A program made the translations under genes and the position numbers. From positions 1-31,720 of IMG/VR virus record IMGVR_UViG_3300006805_000097: a DNA stretch of 31,720 bases. One strand, written 5' to 3'. The notes under the pieces are model-generated. The model was not told the origin of the DNA and ran no database searches. It was given only the letters and a program-made list of their open reading frames with translations. This document shows positions 4,099-31,720 of the stretch, in pieces. This DNA is from a virus. Every line of letters starts with the position of its first letter. Position 1 is the first letter of the stretch.

Positions 4099-4472
4099 TA
4101 AAGATTCCACTTGATTCAAAGCGCCGAGTCATTGAGAAAAACATTTTCCCTTGGTCTAGCTGCGCACCATTTGTCGAAAACTCTCGCGGCTCCTTGATCC
4201 ATAGACCACGAAGCGGCGCTACCTACAACATCCACAAGCATCAGCATATCAGTGTCAGCTTCTGGTGCGGCATGGCCGTTGCCACACACACCAATAATCT
4301 GACGTTTTTACCATCGCCACCTGACGGGAAAATACTCTGCGAAAAATGCGAGGCAAACGCCGTAAAGAACGGCCTACCTAGCGCCGACGACCTGGCTGGA
4401 AAGCACGTGCACAAAGGAAGAACGGTTGCCGTTGTGACTTGCTGCCCCGCGCACGAAGGGGTGACGAGATGA
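4095..4472 (+). CDS. Hypothetical protein with zinc-ribbon-like C-terminus
   Basis: This 125-residue protein is coupled to the winged-helix gene by ATGA. It contains CEKCEANAVKNGLP (near residue 83) and a later CCPAH, together a plausible four-Cys or Cys/His zinc ribbon. The N-terminal part looks less GC-rich than its neighbours (AAA, ATT and TTT codons are frequent), which may reflect recent acquisition. The family was not recognised. Confidence 0.55.
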   Translation: MIKIPLDSKRRVIEKNIFPWSSCAPFVENSRGSLIHRPRSGATYNIHKHQHISVSFWCGMAVATHTNNLTFLPSPPDGKILCEKCEANAVKNGLPSADDLAGKHVHKGRTVAVVTCCPAHEGVTR

Positions 4473-4936
4473 GCCTATCCCGCCAACAGCGCGCCCATCT
4501 AGCCGCCTGCGACCGCTTCAAATCTGGAAAGCAGAAGCCGCCAACCCGCAAGCAGGCCCAGGCATGGCTAGCACCGATCCGTAAAGCATTCCGCGAGATC
4601 AAGACCGGCGAAGTCGATTCTCACCGAGGCTACGCCATCACCCGCATTCATTGGGCCGATGAAGACTTCGCCCGTGTCGATCACTGCATCAACGGTTTCA
4701 CCGCCATGCTCGATCGCCTGATGCCGGAATTCGACACCGGGGCGATGAAGCGCGTCAGCAAGAAGCTATCGGCAGGCGTGCTGCTCACGCACGACGAGGT
4801 CGAGGCGTGCTTTGTGGTGCTGAACCTGTGCGAGGACCGCCTGATCAAGCATAAGCGCGCTGAGCTGATGGATGCCGCGCTGACCGAGCAAGTGAATATC
4901 GAGCTGGAACGGCTCAATTTGAAGGATGCGGCATAG
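4469..4936 (+). CDS. Hypothetical helical phage protein
   Basis: This 155-residue protein starts at the ATG overlapping the previous stop; an upstream frame to 4439 is shadow. It is largely helical and basic at the N-terminus (SRQQRAHLAACDRFKSGKQKPP), with conserved-looking GYAITRIHWADEDFARVDHCI. No catalytic signature was recognised. It precedes the methyltransferase by two bases. Confidence 0.55.
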   Translation: MSLSRQQRAHLAACDRFKSGKQKPPTRKQAQAWLAPIRKAFREIKTGEVDSHRGYAITRIHWADEDFARVDHCINGFTAMLDRLMPEFDTGAMKRVSKKLSAGVLLTHDEVEACFVVLNLCEDRLIKHKRAELMDAALTEQVNIELERLNLKDAA

Positions 4937-4938
4937 CC

Positions 4939-6630
4939 ATGCAAATGAATCTCGACATCCACGGCGAGCTGATCATCGATAACTTTGCCGGCGGCGGTGG
5001 TGCTTCAACGGGAATCGAGCTAGCGCTCGGTCGTCGCGTCGATATTGCCATCGACCATGATCCGGAGGCGGTCGCCATGCACACTGCGAACCATCCGGAG
5101 ACGAAGCACTACTGCGAGAGCGTCTGGGAAATCGACCCGCGCGAAGTAACCCAGGGTAGGCCTGTCGCGCTGGTCTGGCTTTCTCCCGACTGCAAGCACT
5201 TCAGCAAGGCCAAGGGTGGCAAGCCCGTCGAGAAGAAGATTCGCGGCCTCGCCTGGGTTGCGCTGCGCTGGGCGGCTGTCGCCAAGCCGCGTGTGATCAT
5301 GCTCGAGAACGTCGAAGAGTTTCGCACATGGGGCCCGCTGGTGATCGACGGCGAAGGCAACACCAGGCCATGCCCGAAGAACAAGGGCAGGACGTTCAAT
5401 TCGTTCTGCAATGCCCTGAGAGCCCAGGGGTATCAAATCGAGCATCGCGAGCTTCGTGCCTGCGACTATGGCACGCCGACGATCCGCAAGCGCCTGTTCC
5501 TGATCGCCCGCCGCGATGGACAGCCAATTGTCTGGCCAGCGCCGACGCACGGCGACCCGCGAAACATCGCCACCAAGGCCAATAAGCTGAAGCCGTGGCG
5601 CACCGCTGCTGAGTGCATTGACTTCACCGCGCCATGCCCGTCAATCTTTGAGCGCACCCGTCCGCTGGCCGACGCCACACTTCGCCGGATCGCCAAGGGC
5701 ATCATGCGCTACGTTGTGAATGCGGCAGAGCCGTTCATCGTGAATACGGCGAATAGCAAGACCACCGGCAGAGGGCCCAACGCTTGGGATATTAACGAGC
5801 CGACGCGCACAATAACTTCAGCGCCCGGATTCGCTGTTGTCGCACCAGTCCTGACCGAGCATGCCAACGCATCGACGCCCCGCTGCATGCCAGCCGACGA
5901 ACCGCTGCGCACGATCTTAGCCCAGACTAAGGGCGGGCACCACGCCCTGGTTACCGCCTTCATGGCGAAGCACTACGGCGGCGTTGTCGGCCACAGCCTA
6001 CAAGGCGAACCGCTGCACACCGTCACCAGCTCAGACCATAACAGCCTGGTCACCGCCAACCTGATTCACATGGGCCACGGCGAAGGCAAGGACGGAAGCA
6101 AGCGATTCAGCCACGGCATTCGTGACATTGAACAACCGATCAATACCATCACGGCCAACGGTGCGACCGCTGGCATCGTGACGAGCAACCTGGTCAAGAT
6201 GCGCGGCACCAGCCAGGACGGCCAGCCAATCGACGAGCATCTGCACACAGTAAGCGCCCAGGGGACGCACCACGCCGAGGTCCGCGCCTTCCTTGTGAAA
6301 TATTACGGATCAGACCAAGACCCACGCCTCGAGGAACCGTTGCACACGGTAACCACTAAGGACCGCTACGGCCTGGTAACTGTCGCCGGCGATGAATACC
6401 AGATCGCCGACATCGGCCTGCGCATGCTGGCCCCACGTGAGCTATTCAAGGCCCAAGGATTCCCCGACAGCTACGTCATGGACTGGGGAATCGATCACAA
6501 CGGACAGCGCATTAACCTGACCAAAACAGCCCAGATTCGCATGTGCGGCAACAGCGTTTGTCCGCCACTGGCTGCGGCGCTTGTCCGGTCGAATCTTTCT
6601 GAACTGGCCGTCGCCAGGAGAGCGGCATGA
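4939..6630 (+). CDS. DNA (cytosine-5-)-methyltransferase with internal repeat array
   Basis: This 563-residue C5 methyltransferase has motif I NFAGGGGAST (15-24), a catalytic loop SPDCKHFSKAKGG with Cys85 as nucleophile (the PDC form replaces the usual PC), motif VI ENV (123-125), motif VIII RKRLFLIARR (183-192), and motifs IX/X at the C-terminus (LAPRELFKAQGFP; MCGNSVCPP). It transfers methyl from S-adenosylmethionine to cytosine C5, probably to protect phage DNA from restriction. Residues ~286-482, where the target-recognition domain lies, hold about six degenerate repeats of an (E/D)xPLxTV/IT core followed by a variable spacer and a VT-type strand. One repeat carries the 26-bp sequence found inverted at 7117-7142. 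No restriction partner is adjacent, so an orphan enzyme is likely. Confidence 0.9.
   Translation: MQMNLDIHGELIIDNFAGGGGASTGIELALGRRVDIAIDHDPEAVAMHTANHPETKHYCESVWEIDPREVTQGRPVALVWLSPDCKHFSKAKGGKPVEKKIRGLAWVALRWAAVAKPRVIMLENVEEFRTWGPLVIDGEGNTRPCPKNKGRTFNSFCNALRAQGYQIEHRELRACDYGTPTIRKRLFLIARRDGQPIVWPAPTHGDPRNIATKANKLKPWRTAAECIDFTAPCPSIFERTRPLADATLRRIAKGIMRYVVNAAEPFIVNTANSKTTGRGPNAWDINEPTRTITSAPGFAVVAPVLTEHANASTPRCMPADEPLRTILAQTKGGHHALVTAFMAKHYGGVVGHSLQGEPLHTVTSSDHNSLVTANLIHMGHGEGKDGSKRFSHGIRDIEQPINTITANGATAGIVTSNLVKMRGTSQDGQPIDEHLHTVSAQGTHHAEVRAFLVKYYGSDQDPRLEEPLHTVTTKDRYGLVTVAGDEYQIADIGLRMLAPRELFKAQGFPDSYVMDWGIDHNGQRINLTKTAQIRMCGNSVCPPLAAALVRSNLSELAVARRAA
6256..6281 (+). repeat. 26-bp inverted repeat, copy inside the methyltransferase gene
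   Basis: These 26 bases encode AQGTHHAEV of the fifth repeat unit of the methyltransferase. Their exact reverse complement is at 7117-7142. The bases immediately flanking the two copies differ. The two copies bracket 835 bp that hold the 3' end of the methyltransferase gene, a membrane peptide, the HTH gene and the integrase start. Confidence 0.85.
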
Positions 6631-24461: not shown

Positions 24462-26375
24462 TTACCAGCCCAGGTTGGGTATTCCATGATTTCGCCCTGG
24501 CATTCTTGTTTTGACGGGCGGCTTCTTTGGCGCCTCGATCGGTTTTTGTTCGGCGGCTGTTTCGGCCGGTTCTGCGGTCTGTTCCGGCTCGATCATGGCG
24601 GCGCGCCGCTTCCAGTCGGCCACCTTCCATTTGTGCAGGTAGAGTTCCGGGTGATGGCTGGCAGCGGTGGCGTAGACGTGGGTGTCCAGGACTTCGTTGC
24701 GCTTGCCCTTCTTGATTTCCCAGCGGTTCTTGCGCGGGTTGAATACTTCGGCGACTTGCTGATCGAAGAAAGCATGCTCCAGCTCAGTGCTGAAATGAAC
24801 CCTGCGCTCGCCGGGGTCTTTGTCGGTGTCATCGTTGAGCCGCCCATAGATGTGATGCTTGGCGGTGTCGGTGCCGACGATGTAAAGGGCGACGCCTTTC
24901 TTGACGGTCTGGCCGCGCCAGTTGACGTCCTGGTGGCTGGGCTTTCCGAGGATGACGCGGCCGGTAGTGCTGGCGCCCTTGCAGGCGATGACGCGGCGGG
25001 CCTTGGCGCGGCGAACGTAGGCATAGACGTCGTGCGTGAAGTGACCGCCGGTATCGATGGCCGTGGCCTCGATGCGCAGTGTCTTGCCGTATGAATTGGT
25101 AAATTCGGCCGTCAGGTAGTCATCGAGCGCGGCCCATACTTCATCGCCGGACGGCTTGCCGGGGATGATGTGGTAATCGATGGTCCATTCCTTTTTGTCG
25201 GCGCCCCAGCCGATGACGCGAACTTCGAGGCGGTCGTCCTGGGTATCGACGCCGGCCGTCAGGACCAGCACGCCCTGCGGGATCGTGCGCAGCGCGTAGG
25301 GCTCGGCGCGGGCGATCAGCACGTTGGGCTTGAGGTCGTGCGAGCGGTCGGCCCAGGATTCAGCCAGGCGGGTGTTGATGAAGATGACGAGCTTCTTGGC
25401 GTCGCCCTGCGCCTCGATCCATTCCTGCGCTAGTTGCACCCAGGAGCGGCCGAGGCCGTTGGGCGTATAGATGCCGTTGATGTGATAGCTGCGGTAGAGC
25501 GCGCCGGGGTTTTCGGCGATCCAGCGGCCACCGGCTAGCATGCCGTTCTTCTGGTGTTCGTCGATCTCGCAGCCGCAGTGTTCGCAGACGTACCAGGCGC
25601 GGGTGACTCGCTGGCCGACTACCGTCCATCGGACGTTCGACCACTTGAGCGTCTGCCGTTCTTCGCAGTGCGGGCAGGGCACATGGTAGCGGCGCTGGTC
25701 GCCGGCCTCGAATTGTTCCTCGATCTTGCTGGCGTCCTTGATGGTCGGGCTGGAGACGACGAAGAGCTTGGAGTTGTGGAAGGCGGCGAAGCGGATCTCG
25801 AACAGGCCGAGCGGATCGCCCTGCGGCGTCGTCCAGTCCCATTCATCCACCTCGTCGGCCATGCCCCACTTGAGGCTGGAGGCCTTGAGTTCGGCGGTCG
25901 AGCCGCTGGTCTTGAAGTAGATCAGGCCGCCCTTGAAGCGCTTGCGCTTGGCCGCGTTGTCGCCCGAGCGATTGCTGCGCAGCGCCATGGACTCATTGAC
26001 GACCGGCGTATCCTTGACCATCGGGTCGAACTTCTGCGACGTCCAATCCTGCAGGCTGGCCTCGGTCGGCATGACGACGGCGCCCGGCCCCTTGACGTGG
26101 TCAATGCAGTAGCCGACGAAGTTCGATCCGATCTCGGTACCGCCCCACTGCGACGGCTTCATGAGCACGACCTTTTCGCCGGGCGCATCTTCGGACAGCG
26201 CATCGAGGATTTCTCGCTGCGGCGGGTTGCGCGACGTGCGCCACCGCCCCGGCTCGGCACTGCCATCTTCCGACAGAACGCGATTGGCGTCCGCCCACTC
26301 GGAAACGAGCAGCGGCGCCTTCGGTCGGATGGCGCGACGGGCGATGCGGTAGGCCAGGGCGTGGGCGGCGGTCAT
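24462..26375 (-). CDS. Terminase large subunit, GpA family
   Basis: This 637-residue GpA-type terminase has the N-terminal ATPase (KVVLMKPSQWGGTEIG as the Walker A-like loop, MADEVDEWDW as Walker B), a Cys cluster (CPHCEERQ and CEHCGCE), and the C-terminal nuclease (GVDTQDDRLEVRVIGWG with metal-binding Asp residues). It cuts concatemeric DNA and drives packaging through the portal with the small subunit. The N-terminal 83 bp (26290-26372) are duplicated at 26771-26853. The tail (PVKTRMPGRNHGIPNLGW) may bind portal. The start is ATGA-coupled to cassette Y. Confidence 0.9.
   Translation of the reverse strand: MTAAHALAYRIARRAIRPKAPLLVSEWADANRVLSEDGSAEPGRWRTSRNPPQREILDALSEDAPGEKVVLMKPSQWGGTEIGSNFVGYCIDHVKGPGAVVMPTEASLQDWTSQKFDPMVKDTPVVNESMALRSNRSGDNAAKRKRFKGGLIYFKTSGSTAELKASSLKWGMADEVDEWDWTTPQGDPLGLFEIRFAAFHNSKLFVVSSPTIKDASKIEEQFEAGDQRRYHVPCPHCEERQTLKWSNVRWTVVGQRVTRAWYVCEHCGCEIDEHQKNGMLAGGRWIAENPGALYRSYHINGIYTPNGLGRSWVQLAQEWIEAQGDAKKLVIFINTRLAESWADRSHDLKPNVLIARAEPYALRTIPQGVLVLTAGVDTQDDRLEVRVIGWGADKKEWTIDYHIIPGKPSGDEVWAALDDYLTAEFTNSYGKTLRIEATAIDTGGHFTHDVYAYVRRAKARRVIACKGASTTGRVILGKPSHQDVNWRGQTVKKGVALYIVGTDTAKHHIYGRLNDDTDKDPGERRVHFSTELEHAFFDQQVAEVFNPRKNRWEIKKGKRNEVLDTHVYATAASHHPELYLHKWKVADWKRRAAMIEPEQTAEPAETAAEQKPIEAPKKPPVKTRMPGRNHGIPNLGW
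26290..26372 (-). repeat. 83-bp direct repeat, native copy at the start of terL
   Basis: These 83 bp encode the first residues of the large terminase after the ATG and are identical to 26771-26853. The two copies lie 481 bp apart, so recombination between them would remove cassette Y and the duplicated terS end, restoring a simple terS-X-terL order. Confidence 0.85.
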
Positions 26376-26605
26376 TTGCGTTTAATGATTACCTGTTCAG
26401 GACCATCACCAAGAAACGAGTCATCAAACTGACAAAAACCCGCAGGCGAATAATTTGGCGCATCAATCCAGCCAATGATTGGAATATCGTCGTCCCAATC
26501 TATCCAGTTTTCTGTGCACGGTTCTTCTGGGCGAAAATAATCAAGTTCCATTGGTCCGCCCAATCCAGTCATGCAAAGTCCCGCGTGATCGTTGAAATAA
26601 CTCAT
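26372..26605 (-). CDS. Cassette Y: acidic small protein next to terL
   Basis: This 77-residue protein is strongly acidic (WIDWDDDIPIIGWID, then FDDSFLGDGPE) and shows no family resemblance. It starts with the ATG of an ATGA overlap with the duplicated terS end, exactly where cassette X starts after the intact terS, and its stop overlaps terL. The base composition looks more AT-rich than in the terminase genes. High acidity is compatible with a DNA-mimic inhibitor, but this is only a guess from charge. Confidence 0.6.
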   Translation of the reverse strand: MSYFNDHAGLCMTGLGGPMELDYFRPEEPCTENWIDWDDDIPIIGWIDAPNYSPAGFCQFDDSFLGDGPEQVIIKRK

Positions 26606-26865
26606 TCCTCACTCCCAATAATTTCCAACTGCTTCGAAAACTCCCGTTCCATCTCAGCCAGCGCTCCAAACACTTCCTGTTTGAGCGTGGCTCGGATGGC
26701 GTCGAGATCCTTGCCGACGATTTCCGGCGCGATGCGGTGCGGCAGGTTTTCCAGCCGCTGGCGAAAGGCATCCGCCCACTCGGAAACGAGCAGCGGCGCC
26801 TTCGGTCGGATGGCGCGACGGGCGATGCGGTAGGCCAGGGCGTGGGCGGCGGTGTGTAGCATCAT
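26602..26865 (-). pseudogene. Chimera of terL start and terS end
   Basis: This 87-codon frame starts MMLHTAAHALAYRIARRAIR, copying the large terminase N-terminus, and then switches to FRQRLENLPHRIAPEIVGKD, copying the small terminase C-terminus. The junction lies near 26766-26771 at a GGC shared by both parents. The terL part is nucleotide-identical to the parent for 83 bp. The terS part is clearly diverged, with four amino-acid changes near the end plus silent changes, so the two terS ends are different alleles. It probably has no function of its own, but it may be translated because it is coupled to its neighbours. Confidence 0.8.
26771..26853 (-). repeat. 83-bp direct repeat, copy in the chimera
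   Basis: This stretch is identical to the terL N-terminal region at 26290-26372. Its left edge is the terS/terL junction and its right edge meets the end of cassette X. The lack of substitutions indicates a recent or gene-converted duplication, in contrast to the diverged terS segment beside it. Confidence 0.85.
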
Positions 26866-27080
26866 TAGAACGGATCGCAAAGCCTCAAAGGAAGATGGCG
26901 ATAAACATTCCTCTGGCTTTTTCGCGCCGATCTAACCTTTATAAATTCACGCAGTTTCGGAACACGTGGGCTGCAATCTAGATGCCTATTCAGATACCAA
27001 TTTACCCGATCAGGGTCGTGATATGGATGGCCGACACCAGCCATCTTGTATTCATGACGCCTCATTAAAAACCTATTCAT
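26865..27080 (-). CDS. Cassette X: basic small protein after terS
   Basis: This 71-residue strongly basic protein (MNRFLMRRHEYKM; FIKVRSARKSQRNVYRHLPLR) has no recognised family. It is coupled to the intact terS by ATGA and ends in TAATG, coupling to the chimera. It is the counterpart of cassette Y at the same site. DNA or RNA binding is plausible from charge alone. The AT content of this segment appears higher than in the flanking genes, as expected of a moron-type insertion. Confidence 0.55.
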   Translation of the reverse strand: MNRFLMRRHEYKMAGVGHPYHDPDRVNWYLNRHLDCSPRVPKLREFIKVRSARKSQRNVYRHLPLRLCDPF

Positions 27081-27613
27081 TCCTCACTCCCCATTTGTTC
27101 AATGTGTTTAGAAAATTCCCGCTCCATCTCCGCCAGGGCACCAAACACTTCCTGCTTGAGCGTGGCGCGGATGGCGTCGAGATCCTTACCGACGATTTCC
27201 GGCGCGATGCGGTGCGGCAGGTTTTCCAGCCGCTGGCGAAAGGCGGTCACGACGTCAGCGATGGCGCCTTCGACTTCTGATTTTTCGACGACCTTTCCGA
27301 TGGCGCGCTCGTATTCGAGCTTGGCCTGCATGGCGCTGAATTTTTCCTTGACGGCGCGGGCGGCCTGGTAGCTGCTGCCGATCTTGTCGGACTGCGACGC
27401 CTCAACCGGTGCATCCTGCCGATTTTCGGCATGGCGCTGAGTGACGTCGTCGCGGTTCGGGTCCGATGTGCCGGCGATGCGGGCACGGCTGGCTTCGACG
27501 TCGACTTTGCCGTCTTCAGTCATCACCAGACGGCCGGCGCCTTTAAGCGCGGTGATATAGCTGCGCGCCTTGCCTTCCATGCGGGCAAATTCGGCCTGGG
27601 TGACGGTGGTCAT
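27077..27613 (-). CDS. Terminase small subunit, Nu1-like
   Basis: This 178-residue protein has an N-terminal HTH-like segment (VTQAEFARMEGKARSYITALKGAGRLV), a charged linker (DPNRDDVTQRHAENRQ) and a helical C-terminus (KLEYERAIGKVVEKSEVEG, AIRATLKQEVFGALAEME). Nu1-type proteins recognise the packaging site and recruit the large subunit. The final ~54 residues are duplicated in diverged form in the chimera. It is ATGA-coupled to the ParB-like fragment upstream and to cassette X downstream. Confidence 0.8.
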   Translation of the reverse strand: MTTVTQAEFARMEGKARSYITALKGAGRLVMTEDGKVDVEASRARIAGTSDPNRDDVTQRHAENRQDAPVEASQSDKIGSSYQAARAVKEKFSAMQAKLEYERAIGKVVEKSEVEGAIADVVTAFRQRLENLPHRIAPEIVGKDLDAIRATLKQEVFGALAEMEREFSKHIEQMGSEE

Positions 27614-27801
27614 TCGCCGAACGCCTGGCCGGTTACGGCGTGGACGGCAATGATGCCGCCCTGTTCGTCGATTAAGACGGGGTTGGTAAAACCGAATTCC
27701 TTAATGCTGGCCGCTACCTGGGCGACTTGTTCTTCGCTGTGGGTTCTACTGTTTCTGGCGTAGGGAATCAGCGATTCAATGGCGATGTTTTCAATTTTCA
27801 T
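27610..27801 (-). pseudogene. ParB-like domain, truncated
   Basis: This 63-residue frame matches the N-terminus of ParB/Srx-fold domains found in phage DNA methyltransferases and plasmid ParB proteins (SLIPYARNSRTHSEEQVAQVAASIKEFG, then FTNPVLIDEQGGIIA). In intact members GGIIAGHGR follows and the domain continues. Here the sequence changes to VHAVTGQAFGE and stops. It looks like the remains of a longer gene after an internal deletion that kept the downstream ATGA coupling. A short functional protein cannot be excluded. Confidence 0.6.
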
Positions 27802-28541: not shown

Positions 28542-28744
28542 CGCCCTGCCCTTTCGCGCTTTTGTGCGTCCTGCAGGCAATCTGCCCAGGTGTCGCAGGA
28601 TTTTCCGAAGTTGCTGTCGGTGGCGTAGCTGCAGCCGGGGCAGATTTCGCTTTCGTAGTCGCGGGCAGGGCAATTGCGGGCGGCGAGCAAGGCGCGGTCG
28701 CGGGCCATTTCTTCCTGGTGCTGGGCGCGGTCGATGTCGTCCAT
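28538..28744 (-). CDS. TraR/DksA-like small Cys protein
   Basis: This 68-residue protein starts MDDIDRAQHQEEMARDRALLAARN, typical of short phage TraR/DksA-family proteins. A Cys cluster (CPGCSYATDSNFGKSCDTWADC) could bind zinc, though the spacing differs from the usual C4 finger. TraR-type proteins bind RNA polymerase in the secondary channel and alter promoter choice. It is coupled to the next gene by GTGA. Confidence 0.5.
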   Translation of the reverse strand: MDDIDRAQHQEEMARDRALLAARNCPARDYESEICPGCSYATDSNFGKSCDTWADCLQDAQKRERAGR

Positions 28745-29005
28745 TTATTTGCCTTTCCGGTTTGCACTGTGCGCCTGTGGCGCGTTCATCGGACCGACCA
28801 GGGTGTCGCATAGCCGGATAGATCGTTCGGCGTCGTATGGCGGGCGTGTGCCGATCTGGTTGCCGTTCTCGCTGGCCCAGAAGGTTGGCTGTCCATCGAT
28901 GCCGGCCTTGATGCTTGGATTGATGGTTTCCGATCCGAAGGCGTCGCGGAGATCGTCAATGAAGGCGGCCACGGTTGGCATGGCGAGGCGCATCGGCTTG
29001 GTCAT
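28745..29005 (-). CDS. Hypothetical protein downstream of the repeat block
   Basis: This 86-residue protein starts MTKPMRLAMPTVAAFIDDLRDAFGSE, with a helical N-terminus. The later part (ASENGNQIGTRPPYDAERSI) and a Lys-rich end are unclassified. The longer frame to 29347 runs through the repeat block and yields VPGVPG-type repeats, so ATG 29005 is the better start. It is the first gene of the late strand after the putative origin. Confidence 0.55.
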   Translation of the reverse strand: MTKPMRLAMPTVAAFIDDLRDAFGSETINPSIKAGIDGQPTFWASENGNQIGTRPPYDAERSIRLCDTLVGPMNAPQAHSANRKGK

Positions 29006-29277
29006 GAGGCATGTTCCGGGTTGTTGTTTTGTGTTCCGGGTACCCGGAACGCTGGAGAACCGCTTGGCTGCGTCGTTGTTCCTACTGTTCCGGGTGTTCC
29101 TCCTGTGTACACGCGGGGATAACAAAGAATGCGCGCGCGTATGAAAAACACCTGTGTCGCGCACGCACACGGGCGGGATCGACGGAACACCCGGAACACC
29201 CGGAACACTCCTGTATTGGCGCGGTTTTTCAGCGTTCCGGGTACCCGGAACATATGGTGATTGAACCTGGAACAGCA
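29006..29277. other. Gene-free repeat block, putative replication origin
   Basis: About 270 bp without a convincing gene. It carries two identical 18-bp perfect palindromes, GTTCCGGGTACCCGGAAC, at 29033-29050 and 29234-29251. Between them lie GTTCCGGGTGTTCC (29087-29100) and, in the opposite orientation, three tandem GGAACACCC-type units (29184-29208). A further TGTTCCGGG is at 29012-29020. The central part holds alternating GC runs (gcgcgcgcg, near 29131). Symmetric iterons beside a primase-helicase gene suggest an origin or the primase gene's control region. Inferred from layout; no homology was tested. Confidence 0.6.
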
Positions 29278-31650
29278 TCAGGCAGCCCACCTTTCGCCAC
29301 CGCCACTGAGCGATTCCGCGAATCGGCGGGCGCATTCGCCAAGCCACTGGGCCTGGTCAGATCCGCTCGGCATGGCAGTCCCGGCATTTTCAAGCGCCGC
29401 GATTGGCGGAAGTACCATGGGCTTCGGTTCTGTTTTAATCGACGCCTCGGCCGGGTACATACGGATCTTCTTTTTCTCCCAGCCGGGCTGGTGCGCGATG
29501 GCGCCGAAGAATTGATTGGATGGCCGGGGACGGCTCTCTCCGTTCGCTCGGCACCACTTCAGGTAGGCGGCATAGAAGTCGGTGGCCAGGCATGGAACGA
29601 CGGGAAGATCGGCATCACCGAGAATCCATTCCTGAGAGAAGCGCAGCTCGCTGGCAGCCGATAGGCTGATCAGGTTGCGCTTGGCCTGGGTCATCGGCGG
29701 GCGCTTCTTGGGGTGGAAGTTGGATAGATCGCGCCGCAGCAGGAAGTTATAGAAGGCTTCGGTACCGCCGTTGGCCAGCTCGGCATGCAGATCGTCATAG
29801 AACGATTCGGGAAGTGCCGGCGGGGTGTAGATGACGAGGTGCCGGCGGTCGTCGTTTTCCAGCGGCAGCGGCTGGTTTTCGTTCGATAGATAGACGATGT
29901 TCAGGTGGTTCTTCTGGTTGTAAGCAACCAGCCCCTTGGGGTTGATGCGGATGGTGTCGCCAGTGACCAGGTTCTTCAGCTTGTTTTTTACGTGCCACAT
30001 TTCCATGCGGCTGACGATTTCCTCGGCCAGGATGAACAGGCGGTTTTCGCCCCAGTCCGAATTGAACTTGTCCTCGATGGCGTCCTGATCAACGACGAGC
30101 CCATACTGCCCGTAGATGGTGCACATGACCTTGAAAAGCGTTGTCTTTCCGGTGCCCTGCGGGCCGTGCATGATCACGGCGCTACCCATCTTGGCGCCCG
30201 GGTTCTGCAGCGGCCAGGCCAGCCAGTCGAGCATGTAGTCGGCGACCTCGCTGCCGTTGGCCTCGGCATTGCAAAGGAATTCAACCAGCTCGAGCAGCAC
30301 GTCGCACTTGCCGGCCGCCGGCTTGATCGGCCAGCCTTTCCAGGTGTTGAGCAGCACGTCCGGATCTTTGCCGGAAGGATCGAAGCCGACCTGGTCAAGA
30401 TAGTAGGCGCCGCGTGTGATCCACACCGGATGCCGCTTGATGTCATCACCCCGCACGCCGGCCGGCAACAGCGCAATCATCTGCGAGCGCTTGGCTACCT
30501 TGTTGGTCCACGTGTCGAAAACGTAATCGCCCGTCCCATCGTCCAGCGGCACGAAGCGCCCAATGATGTCATCGAGGTCCATGACCGACTGTGCCGCCCT
30601 ACGCTTACCCGTCTCCCCTCCCCCCGGTTGCCCGCTATTCCCGCGCGCCGCAGGGGTCGCCTTCCAGCCGAGTGCCGAGAGGGAGGATTCGATCTGTTTT
30701 GCGACAGCATCGTGGCCTTCGAGCAGATGCAGATCGTTGAAATCGGTGGGGCCCTTGGTGTCGGTCGGGCGCTCGTCCTTGAAAATCGGCAGAGCGACAC
30801 CGCCATCGACGGCCAGCGCGGCATTTTGCGCGGCGGTCAGCCCGGGGTTTCCTTCGGTGCGGTAGTCGTCGTCGGCGCAGATCAGGATCTTCGCGCGCTT
30901 GTACTTGGCCTGCAGCGCCTTGGCCACGGACAGAAGATTTCCTGCGTCGAAAGCCACAGCCACCGGCAGATTCGTCGCCTGGTTGATGGATGCCGCCGTG
31001 GCGAACCCTTCTGCCACCAGTAACAGGCGATCGGGAATACCGCCGATCAGGAAGAAGTGCCCCTTCTTGGCCAGGCCAGCCGGCCAAAATGACTTGTCCC
31101 GGCCGTGCTTTTTCTCGTCGTAAATGATCTGCAGGCCGTAGGTCCGGCGCTCGGTGTCCTGAATCGGAATGCAGAACTTCCCGCCCGGCAGAAAACGCCC
31201 GCCGTGCGTCTCGACACGCTTGCGCTTGAGGTACTCGGACTGGTCTCGGCTGCCTTCCTGACAGTGCGATCGCCAGGCGAAGTCGGCGCGCCGGGCGCAT
31301 TCTTCGGCAACCCGCTTTGCTTCTGCTTCGACCCGCTTGCGGTCGGCCTGAATGCGAGCTCGTAACGCTTCGAGCTGTTCGGCCGTCATCGCCTGCCGAT
31401 CCTTGCGCGGCAGCTCGATCTTCTGCACCAGGTTCTCGGCGCCCCAGAAAGCACCGAAGCTGCCGACGATCAGCAGACCAGAACCATCGGCCCGCGGCAA
31501 TTCGTACAGTTGAAACCAGCCCCGCTTTTCCCGTCCGCCATCCTTGTGACGGCAGCGGCGGCGCGAGCCAATGACAATATCGCCAGGCGCAATGTCGAGG
31601 CCAAAGGCCTGCATCTGCCCGAGCACATCATCAAAATTTGTCCAGCTCAC
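29278..31650 (-). CDS. Primase-helicase with Toprim and DUF5906-like domains
   Basis: This 790-residue protein begins at a GTG (31650) preceded by GGAGA, giving MSWTNFDDVLGQMQAFGL, the common start of the family. Residues ~210-300 contain a Toprim-like site (LLLVAEGFATAASIN, KILICADDDYR). The C-terminal half has an SF3-like helicase core: MHGPQGTGKTTLF (Walker A), LFILAEEI (Walker B) and IVYLSNENQPLPL. Such proteins prime and unwind DNA at phage origins, as P4-type alpha proteins do. Upstream lie GTTCAC repeats, and the repeat block follows the stop. A 21-codon upstream extension is possible but lacks support. Confidence 0.85.
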   Translation of the reverse strand: MSWTNFDDVLGQMQAFGLDIAPGDIVIGSRRRCRHKDGGREKRGWFQLYELPRADGSGLLIVGSFGAFWGAENLVQKIELPRKDRQAMTAEQLEALRARIQADRKRVEAEAKRVAEECARRADFAWRSHCQEGSRDQSEYLKRKRVETHGGRFLPGGKFCIPIQDTERRTYGLQIIYDEKKHGRDKSFWPAGLAKKGHFFLIGGIPDRLLLVAEGFATAASINQATNLPVAVAFDAGNLLSVAKALQAKYKRAKILICADDDYRTEGNPGLTAAQNAALAVDGGVALPIFKDERPTDTKGPTDFNDLHLLEGHDAVAKQIESSLSALGWKATPAARGNSGQPGGGETGKRRAAQSVMDLDDIIGRFVPLDDGTGDYVFDTWTNKVAKRSQMIALLPAGVRGDDIKRHPVWITRGAYYLDQVGFDPSGKDPDVLLNTWKGWPIKPAAGKCDVLLELVEFLCNAEANGSEVADYMLDWLAWPLQNPGAKMGSAVIMHGPQGTGKTTLFKVMCTIYGQYGLVVDQDAIEDKFNSDWGENRLFILAEEIVSRMEMWHVKNKLKNLVTGDTIRINPKGLVAYNQKNHLNIVYLSNENQPLPLENDDRRHLVIYTPPALPESFYDDLHAELANGGTEAFYNFLLRRDLSNFHPKKRPPMTQAKRNLISLSAASELRFSQEWILGDADLPVVPCLATDFYAAYLKWCRANGESRPRPSNQFFGAIAHQPGWEKKKIRMYPAEASIKTEPKPMVLPPIAALENAGTAMPSGSDQAQWLGECARRFAESLSGGGERWAA

Positions 31651-31667
31651 GCCCTGTCTCCATTCTT

Positions 31668-31683
31668 GTTCACTATGTTCACC
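31668..31683. repeat. Short GTTCAC direct repeats upstream of the primase gene
   Basis: Two copies of GTTCAC with a 9-bp period (31668-31673 and 31677-31682) sit just upstream of the primase start. They could belong to a longer iteron or regulator-binding array beyond the window edge. Only two copies are visible, so support is weak. Confidence 0.35.
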
Positions 31684-31720
31684 ACCCACCCACACCAAAA
31701 TAAACGCGGTTCGCAATACC

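Follow-up and report, generated by a model that had tools for sequence, protein, structure and literature searches.

A mirrored twelve-site iteron array behind a Toprim-DUF5906 primase-helicase gene as the probable replication origin of a tailed phage

We have analysed a repeat block in a viral contig of 31,720 bases (hereafter the window, meaning this whole stretch), in which terminase, portal, head-tail and tail genes are annotated by PHROG and Pfam comparison. The block forms a nearly perfect mirrored array directly behind the gene of a Toprim-DUF5906 primase-helicase. We consider it to be the phage's own replication origin, bound by the adjacent primase-helicase via its C-terminal winged helix, with a probability of about 0.83; we infer the origin activity from the position and layout of the block and from the precedents of P4, SaPIs and PICIs. 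In most of the examined relatives, an array keeps the same position behind the primase gene, and its repeat word is coupled to the winged helix of the primase.

Results

Layout of the repeat block

The block lies in a gap of 272 bases between the primase stop codon and the next small gene (start 29005), and the stop codon is 4 bp beyond the end of the last block site. The features are as follows, with the basis of each in brackets.

29013-29273, no strand: whole mirrored block, twelve 9-bp sites, dyad axis 29142 (sequence and repeat score)
29013-29021, plus strand: outer site GTTCCGGGT (sequence)
29033-29050, no strand: 18-bp palindrome, two sites head to head (sequence)
29078-29104, plus strand: inner triplet in 9-bp steps, GTTCCTACT, GTTCCGGGT, GTTCCTCCT (sequence)
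29105-29179, no strand: 75-bp core with alternating purine-pyrimidine tract GCGCGCGCG and GTGTACACGCG element (sequence; cores of relatives)
29180-29206, minus strand: mirrored inner triplet, in plus-strand letters CGACGGAAC, ACCCGGAAC, ACCCGGAAC (sequence)
29234-29251, no strand: 18-bp palindrome, copy two (sequence)
29265-29273, minus strand: outer site with one mismatch, ACCTGGAAC on the plus strand (sequence)
28745-29005, minus strand: next gene, 86 aa, starting MTKPMRLAM (ORF list)
29278-31719, minus strand: primase-helicase gene, truncated at its 5' side where the contig stops, proposed initiator (Pfam, PHROG, AlphaFold2)

The two identical 18-bp palindromes reported in the preliminary description are present at 29033-29050 and 29234-29251, and perfect palindromes of 16 or 18 bp occur nowhere in the 31,720-base window except inside these two copies. 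All six exact copies of TGTTCCGGGT in the window fall within 29012-29252. Scored by coincident 8-mer pairs, the block (29006-29277) reaches 112, made up of 45 direct and 67 inverted pairs. In 1000 dinucleotide shuffles the score averages 1.8 and peaks at 13, and the highest-scoring 272-nt window elsewhere in the contig has 19. By eye, the layout resolves into twelve 9-bp sites of the TGTTCCGGGT type, with base 29142 as the mirror axis and six sites in each arm. Going inwards, each arm has one outer site, then the palindrome as a head-to-head pair, then three sites spaced at 9 bp (the inner triplet). The sites start at 29013, 29033, 29042 (reversed), 29078, 29087 and 29096 in the left arm and at 29180, 29189 and 29198 (all reversed), 29234, 29243 (reversed) and 29265 (reversed) in the right arm; those at 29078, 29096 and 29180 retain mainly the GTTCC half. 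A near mirror image had been described, and the arrangement is more regular than that, as five of the six mirror pairs sum exactly to 58276 (axis 29142), the outermost pair giving 58278, off by two.

The VPG-type repeats noted earlier in read-through frames are found in an ORF on the minus strand (28745-29347). Neither a sigma-70-like promoter nor an intrinsic terminator was found by a consensus scan of 28700-29600, and no Rfam family matched at 28900-29400. When the block DNA was used as a query against a phage collection, nothing meaningful was returned (best E about 3).

Repeat arrays behind the primase gene in relatives

Relatives were collected by scanning bacterial and viral contigs with a primase alignment; the 80 best loci were kept out of 155 in the bacterial contigs and out of at least 573 in the viral ones. 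The starting set held 176 sequences (175 loci and the window), with L001-L003 being copies of the window. After leaving out two loci without primase (L014, L015) and four with less than 350 nt behind the stop codon (L007, L026, L135, L139), 170 loci were reduced to 150 non-redundant ones at >95% similarity over the last 200 primase residues. Repeats were ranked in 350-nt windows per locus, and the primase-stop window was taken as the best of three starts. This window is the most repetitive of its locus in 136 of the 150 non-redundant loci. Among the 146 loci that were found by primase similarity the count is 132; the window, L013, L016 and L017 entered otherwise and all belong to the 136. The primase-stop score is at least 24 in 143/150 loci, a level that 0.6% of 4989 background windows reach. 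The top repeat window lies elsewhere in 14/150 loci, and L082, L046, L095 and L028 score just 7-11 at the stop. As a control, the same score applied to the P4 genome ranks crr first and ori second.

The exact palindrome is found in seven further viral contigs. Three of these have it twice, at a distance of 193-209 bp, and the orientation pattern of the window recurs. The primase is directly beside the block in all five palindrome-bearing contigs that reach it, and L011 and L017 have nearly identical sequence at the primase/block position. In the other primase relatives the word of the window is missing and is mostly replaced in the same gap by another repeat, such as TATCCGGG, TCTCACGCC, TATTACGCC, GCAAATTAC, TCAGACA or TGTGTTGGG. 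The preliminary description had taken the absence of the repeats from close relatives as a refutation. The exact repeat is indeed mostly absent, but most relatives have a differing word in a similar mirrored layout at the same place, and because of this exchange the absence of one word would mislead. A repeat array behind the primase gene is the general arrangement in the relatives that were examined.

Motif calling in the relatives typically gave 6-12 sites, plus on the left and minus on the right; the plus sign of the left arm is set by construction, and the minus sign of the right arm is not. A central gap flanked by a plus site on the left and a minus site on the right was found in 125/150 loci, with a core length of 54-139 bp. 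Frequent site-to-site steps are 9, 12, 11, 32, 21 and 43 bp. The array of L106 is mirrored to the base; over 88 loci, mirror matching is moderately above that of shuffled spacings (3.69 vs 2.99 sites), and 19 of the 88 arrays are fully mirrored. The iterons share the frame TGTNCNGGNT over 138 loci, and in 124 loci the exact word has 776 copies in the block and 31 outside over 1819 kb. A relative of the 86-aa gene lies up to about 7 kb behind the primase in 29/150 loci, the window counted.

Two side observations concern annotation and assembly. It had been suggested that the read-through repeats can mislead gene callers, and such an error is probable in Stenotrophomonas phage S1 (L018, EU849489.1), where gp2 (ACJ24726.1, 2454-2804) is annotated over the array and is probably not a real gene. 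In the L014 and L015 contigs, position 1 falls inside the array, and these starts are probably assembly breaks at the repeats.

Core between the arms

In 53 of the 125 loci, no window of the locus alternates more strongly between purine and pyrimidine than the core, and the median rank of the core is in the top 0.3%. Its AT content by bin is 0.31-0.51 against a locus mean of 0.39, so that it is on average not AT-rich, while single loci such as L008-L010 appear AT-rich there. At the core edges of the 125 loci and of the window (29105-29179), recurrent CTCGCGCGYGTATA and GTGTACACGCG elements are seen by eye in a roughly mirrored arrangement; they may serve in melting or in binding a second protein.

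Primase-helicase and its predicted winged helix

As the preliminary description had claimed, the gene beside the block encodes a Toprim-DUF5906 primase. The domains are as follows.

Residues 233-336: Toprim_3 domain (PF13362, 44.6 bits, cut-off 27.2)
Residues 517-626: DUF5906 helicase core (PF19263, 79.6 bits, cut-off 27.6)
Residues about 712-770: predicted C-terminal winged helix (AlphaFold2 models)

The curated profile cut-offs for DUF5906/Toprim phage primases (PF19263, PF13362) are both reached, and the protein matches phrog_2249 with E 1.3e-129. In its helicase part there is a match to the NrS-1 primase (E 7e-24) and a weak one to a VapE-like protein (E 0.006). The Pox_D5 profile matches 46 of 75 family members at E up to 0.1, and the window primase at E 0.0042, under the profile cut-off.

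The C-terminal 180 residues are predicted by AlphaFold2 with a pLDDT of 91.6. A recognition helix (734-742) and a wing (748-770), as we interpret the predicted secondary structure, are found in the full-length model, which served for secondary structure only; both fall inside residues 714-784. The VIA-align neighbours of the C-terminal model are mostly winged-helix proteins, with modest Z-scores that are tied at the top. The first row is an ESCRT-II subunit (Z 5.7), and the DNA-binding domains of RFX5 (5.6) and RFX1 (5.4) and the winged helices of Cdc6/ORC (4.2-5.3) are also among them. The P4 origin-binding domain (1ka8) has Z 4.9 over 75 residues at 3.9 A and rank 13, tied with other winged helices. 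Foldseek with the C-terminal model gave no match at E <= 0.001. We predict with confidence that the C-terminus is a winged helix, with a modest resemblance to, among other winged helices, the P4 origin-binding domain.

Coupling of the repeat word to the winged helix

Mean array similarity rises from 0.03 to 0.78 with winged-helix identity (143/150 loci). When the winged helix is alike and the helicase core unlike, array similarity is 0.347 (n=50); when the helicase core is alike and the winged helix unlike, it is 0.078 (n=37). Sliding windows along the primase separate similar from dissimilar arrays best at residues 714-784 (AUC 0.785-0.80). Residues 624-694 give a lower AUC, and their partial r (0.143, 0.124) is as high as that of 714-784 (0.131, 0.137). 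Whole-matrix Mantel tests do not single out the winged helix, the partial r over 143/150 loci being higher for the helicase core (0.136) than for the winged helix (0.084); it is the discordant pairs, the AUC windows and the residue-level tests that single it out.

At the residue level, position 751 was first spotted on 23 hand-picked rows and then tested on primase loci, where 18 rows passed with at least three exact TGTTCNRG copies and one base at a share of at least 60%. In this subfamily, that of the window, K751 is present in 13/13 TGTTCC rows (11 distinct) and R751 in 4/4 TGTTCA rows, and the remaining row combines TGTTCT with K751. A clean column with one residue for each side appears among 195 columns in 6 of 1365 label assignments, and a fully separating column with several residues allowed per side in 697 of 1365. 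On the primase tree, counting starred branches, three changes are forced for the pairing of residue 751 with the iteron base. The closest relative found to the window (L180, primase 72% identical, block word TGTTCAGGG) differs in residue 751 and in the iteron base, and the base is changed in both arms. Over 138 loci, 14 of the top 20 residue-base pairs lie in residues 730-770, where 4.3 are expected by residue number and 40 shuffles gave a mean of 6.6 and a maximum of 11.

These results support the winged helix as the likely binding partner of the iterons, as judged from sequence covariation. For the DNA contact, the preliminary description had named the N-terminal domain of the primase; the evidence favours the C-terminal winged helix, residues about 712-770.

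Alternative functions of the block

The primase-helicase could also bind the block as a crr-like accessory that replication requires, with synthesis starting elsewhere, which we consider unlikely. In P4, crr likewise follows alpha directly, and the record of that phage has a separate ori annotation. Barring three outside copies within 300 nt in one locus (L176), the word was not seen to form a further cluster in the 124 loci; as these are partial genomes, a distant cluster may exist.

Since a TerS gene usually follows the block, it also had to be tested whether the small terminase subunit reads the block as a packaging site (cos/pac, cosB-like). Of the 111 loci with sufficient sequence, 109 have a TerS relative within 4 kb and 89 within 1 kb; some of these matches may be false, because the TerS profile grew broader from one iteration to the next. 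Behind the block of L016, a TerS-like protein is encoded by the next long ORF, with TerL after it. In whole-matrix tests (133 loci for TerS, 125 for TerL), the partial r with the array is 0.100 for TerS and 0.100 for TerL, the winged helix giving 0.088 and 0.095 and the helicase core the highest values, 0.167 and 0.171. The discordant pairs, however, point to the winged helix. Arrays stay similar (0.530, n=14) when winged-helix identity is >0.6 and TerS similarity is at or below the median, whereas pairs with TerS in the top 5% and winged helix <0.4 have an array similarity of 0.065 (n=183), against 0.069 for all pairs; the TerL version gives 0.494 (13) vs 0.091 (189). The statistical coupling of the iteron word is stronger with the primase winged helix than with the terminase.

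The spacing is also at odds with a packaging site. From the primase stop to the array centre the distance is tight (median 136, IQR 128-148), whereas the distance to TerS is loose (median 222, IQR 144-837) and exceeds 1 kb in 24/115 loci; in Halomonas phage H4907, antitermination and lysis genes separate the array from TerS. Among TerL relatives, 15 of 16 loci were examined (L192 left out). Eight of them hold the primase, three of these overlapping the earlier primase set, and each of the eight has its top repeat window at the primase end, whereas TerS is as much as 2 kb distant. On account of the discordant pairs and the loose TerS distance, we regard the packaging-site reading as highly improbable.

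Least probable of all is an operator or early-late transcription switch, bound by the primase or a regulator. A nucleoprotein switch between replication and late genes had been the second proposal of the preliminary description, and the position of the block between primase and structural genes, all on one strand in the window, might suggest one. The scans described above gave no promoter, terminator or Rfam match, twelve mirrored sites with a 75-bp core would be unusual for an operator, and the repeat word tracks a helicase-primase. The first proposal, an origin with oppositely bound initiators, remains the best reading and is strengthened by the relatives.

Other features of the window

Two direct duplications, each with its copies about 480 bp apart, surround the TerS/TerL junction. 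One pairs 26280-26372 with 26761-26853 (93 nt, 97% identity) and the other 26602-26769 with 27077-27244 (168 nt, 90% identity); they reflect either recombination or an assembly chimera. An ORF on the minus strand (26602-26880) has a start that is TerL-like by eye and an end that is TerS-like by PHROG comparison. A short minus-strand ORF at 27610-27801, apparently truncated just before TerS, resembles by eye the N-terminal part of a ParB-like protein. A C-5 cytosine DNA methylase (PF00145, E 5e-29, two stretches) is encoded at 4939-6630 on the plus strand, opposite to the structural genes.

Discussion

During initiation at the putative origin, the C-terminal winged helix of the primase-helicase would read the 9-bp iteron. 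With six sites per side in opposite overall orientation, helicase subunits could be loaded from both sides, and two hexamers on twelve sites would be the natural count. The core between the arms would then be opened, two primase-helicases would depart in opposite directions, and the Toprim primase would prime. On the other hand, GC skew along the primase strand changes across the block from a mean of +0.022 to -0.021, being higher upstream than downstream in 57/72 loci. This sign is opposite to the textbook pattern of a bidirectional origin and counts against an origin, and skew was accordingly dropped as support. It may reflect gene content or a later rolling-circle phase. The lack of AT enrichment in the core and the presence of two separate elements in P4 also speak against the origin reading.

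The proposed origin shows similarities with those of SaPIs and Gram-negative PICIs (pri-rep-ori). According to two reports (PMC6092414, PMC7581432), these origins lie immediately 3' of the initiator gene, with two iteron sets around a central region, and the initiator is a helicase or primase-helicase. A further report places satellite DUF5906 proteins beside mapped origins (PMC10111431). The window block is likewise immediately 3' of the primase gene, the presumed initiator, and two iteron sets flank a centre in the window and in 125/150 loci. In contrast to those origins, the window block is carried by a full-size tailed phage that encodes terminase, portal and tail proteins, its core is alternating purine-pyrimidine and not AT-rich, and its twelve sites form an almost exact mirror. 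Because of the core and the carrier, we do not class the block as a PICI origin.

The likeness to P4 is also partial. In P4, crr (4291-4590) and the end of alpha (4636) are adjacent, so that an iteron element lies directly behind an alpha-type gene in both. The crr iterons, TGTTCAC(A/C) on both strands, resemble TGTTC(C/A)GG here, and P4 TGTTCACC is similar to the common frame of the relatives. The winged-helix origin-binding domain of P4 may have its counterpart here in a predicted domain with a modest structural match. However, P4 carries ori as a further element, at a distance of more than 4 kb from crr, and its crr consists of two 120-bp direct repeats and not of one dyad. The window primase scores 28.9 bits against TIGR01613 (P4 family; cut-off 108.7), and because it is far below this cut-off we do not class the block as a P4 system.

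More distant systems offer further parallels. SV40 T antigen and papillomavirus E1 are helicases loaded from oppositely oriented sites. In PMC7581432, SaPI Rep is paralleled with both, as viral helicases that recognise their own origins, and they are said to bind the origin via an N-terminal domain, whereas here the binding domain is C-terminal by prediction. The same report describes SCCmec Cch2, a helicase whose C-terminal domain, in vitro, binds direct repeats that lie downstream of its own operon. That arrangement resembles the one proposed here, where a helicase C-terminal domain would bind repeats near its own gene, but it has three iterons and a separate primase and lacks a mirrored twelve-site block. 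The origin of S. thermophilus phage Sfi21 presumably lies behind a primase gene as well. It is noncoding and within the replication module (PMC6356513). No report of arrays behind the primase of full-size phages was found in the openly licensed PMC literature. Within that literature, the new elements are the generality of the organisation among the examined primase relatives, the almost exact mirror, the alternating core and the protein-DNA coupling at single residues.

Because the protein frame is constant and the words vary, these loci amount to a natural experiment on the joint change of a winged helix and about a dozen sites. Tentatively, and with the odds somewhat against it, we propose that these temperate phages have one origin machine in common, in which the mirrored frame of twelve sites is fixed and the password can be exchanged. 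The winged helix and all iteron copies would change together, with wing and recognition-helix residues 751, 753, 736 and 765 setting the word. Such pairs would be incompatibility types, by which prophages in the same cell could replicate independently of each other, and the core would open via alternating purine-pyrimidine (Z-DNA-prone) tracts and not via an AT-rich element.

If the origin reading is true, mirrored repeats behind a Toprim-DUF5906 primase gene would provide a simple rule for finding the origins of many temperate tailed phages of proteobacteria, and the protein domain that reads the origin would be named. An origin organisation described as specific to satellites would thereby extend to full-size phages.
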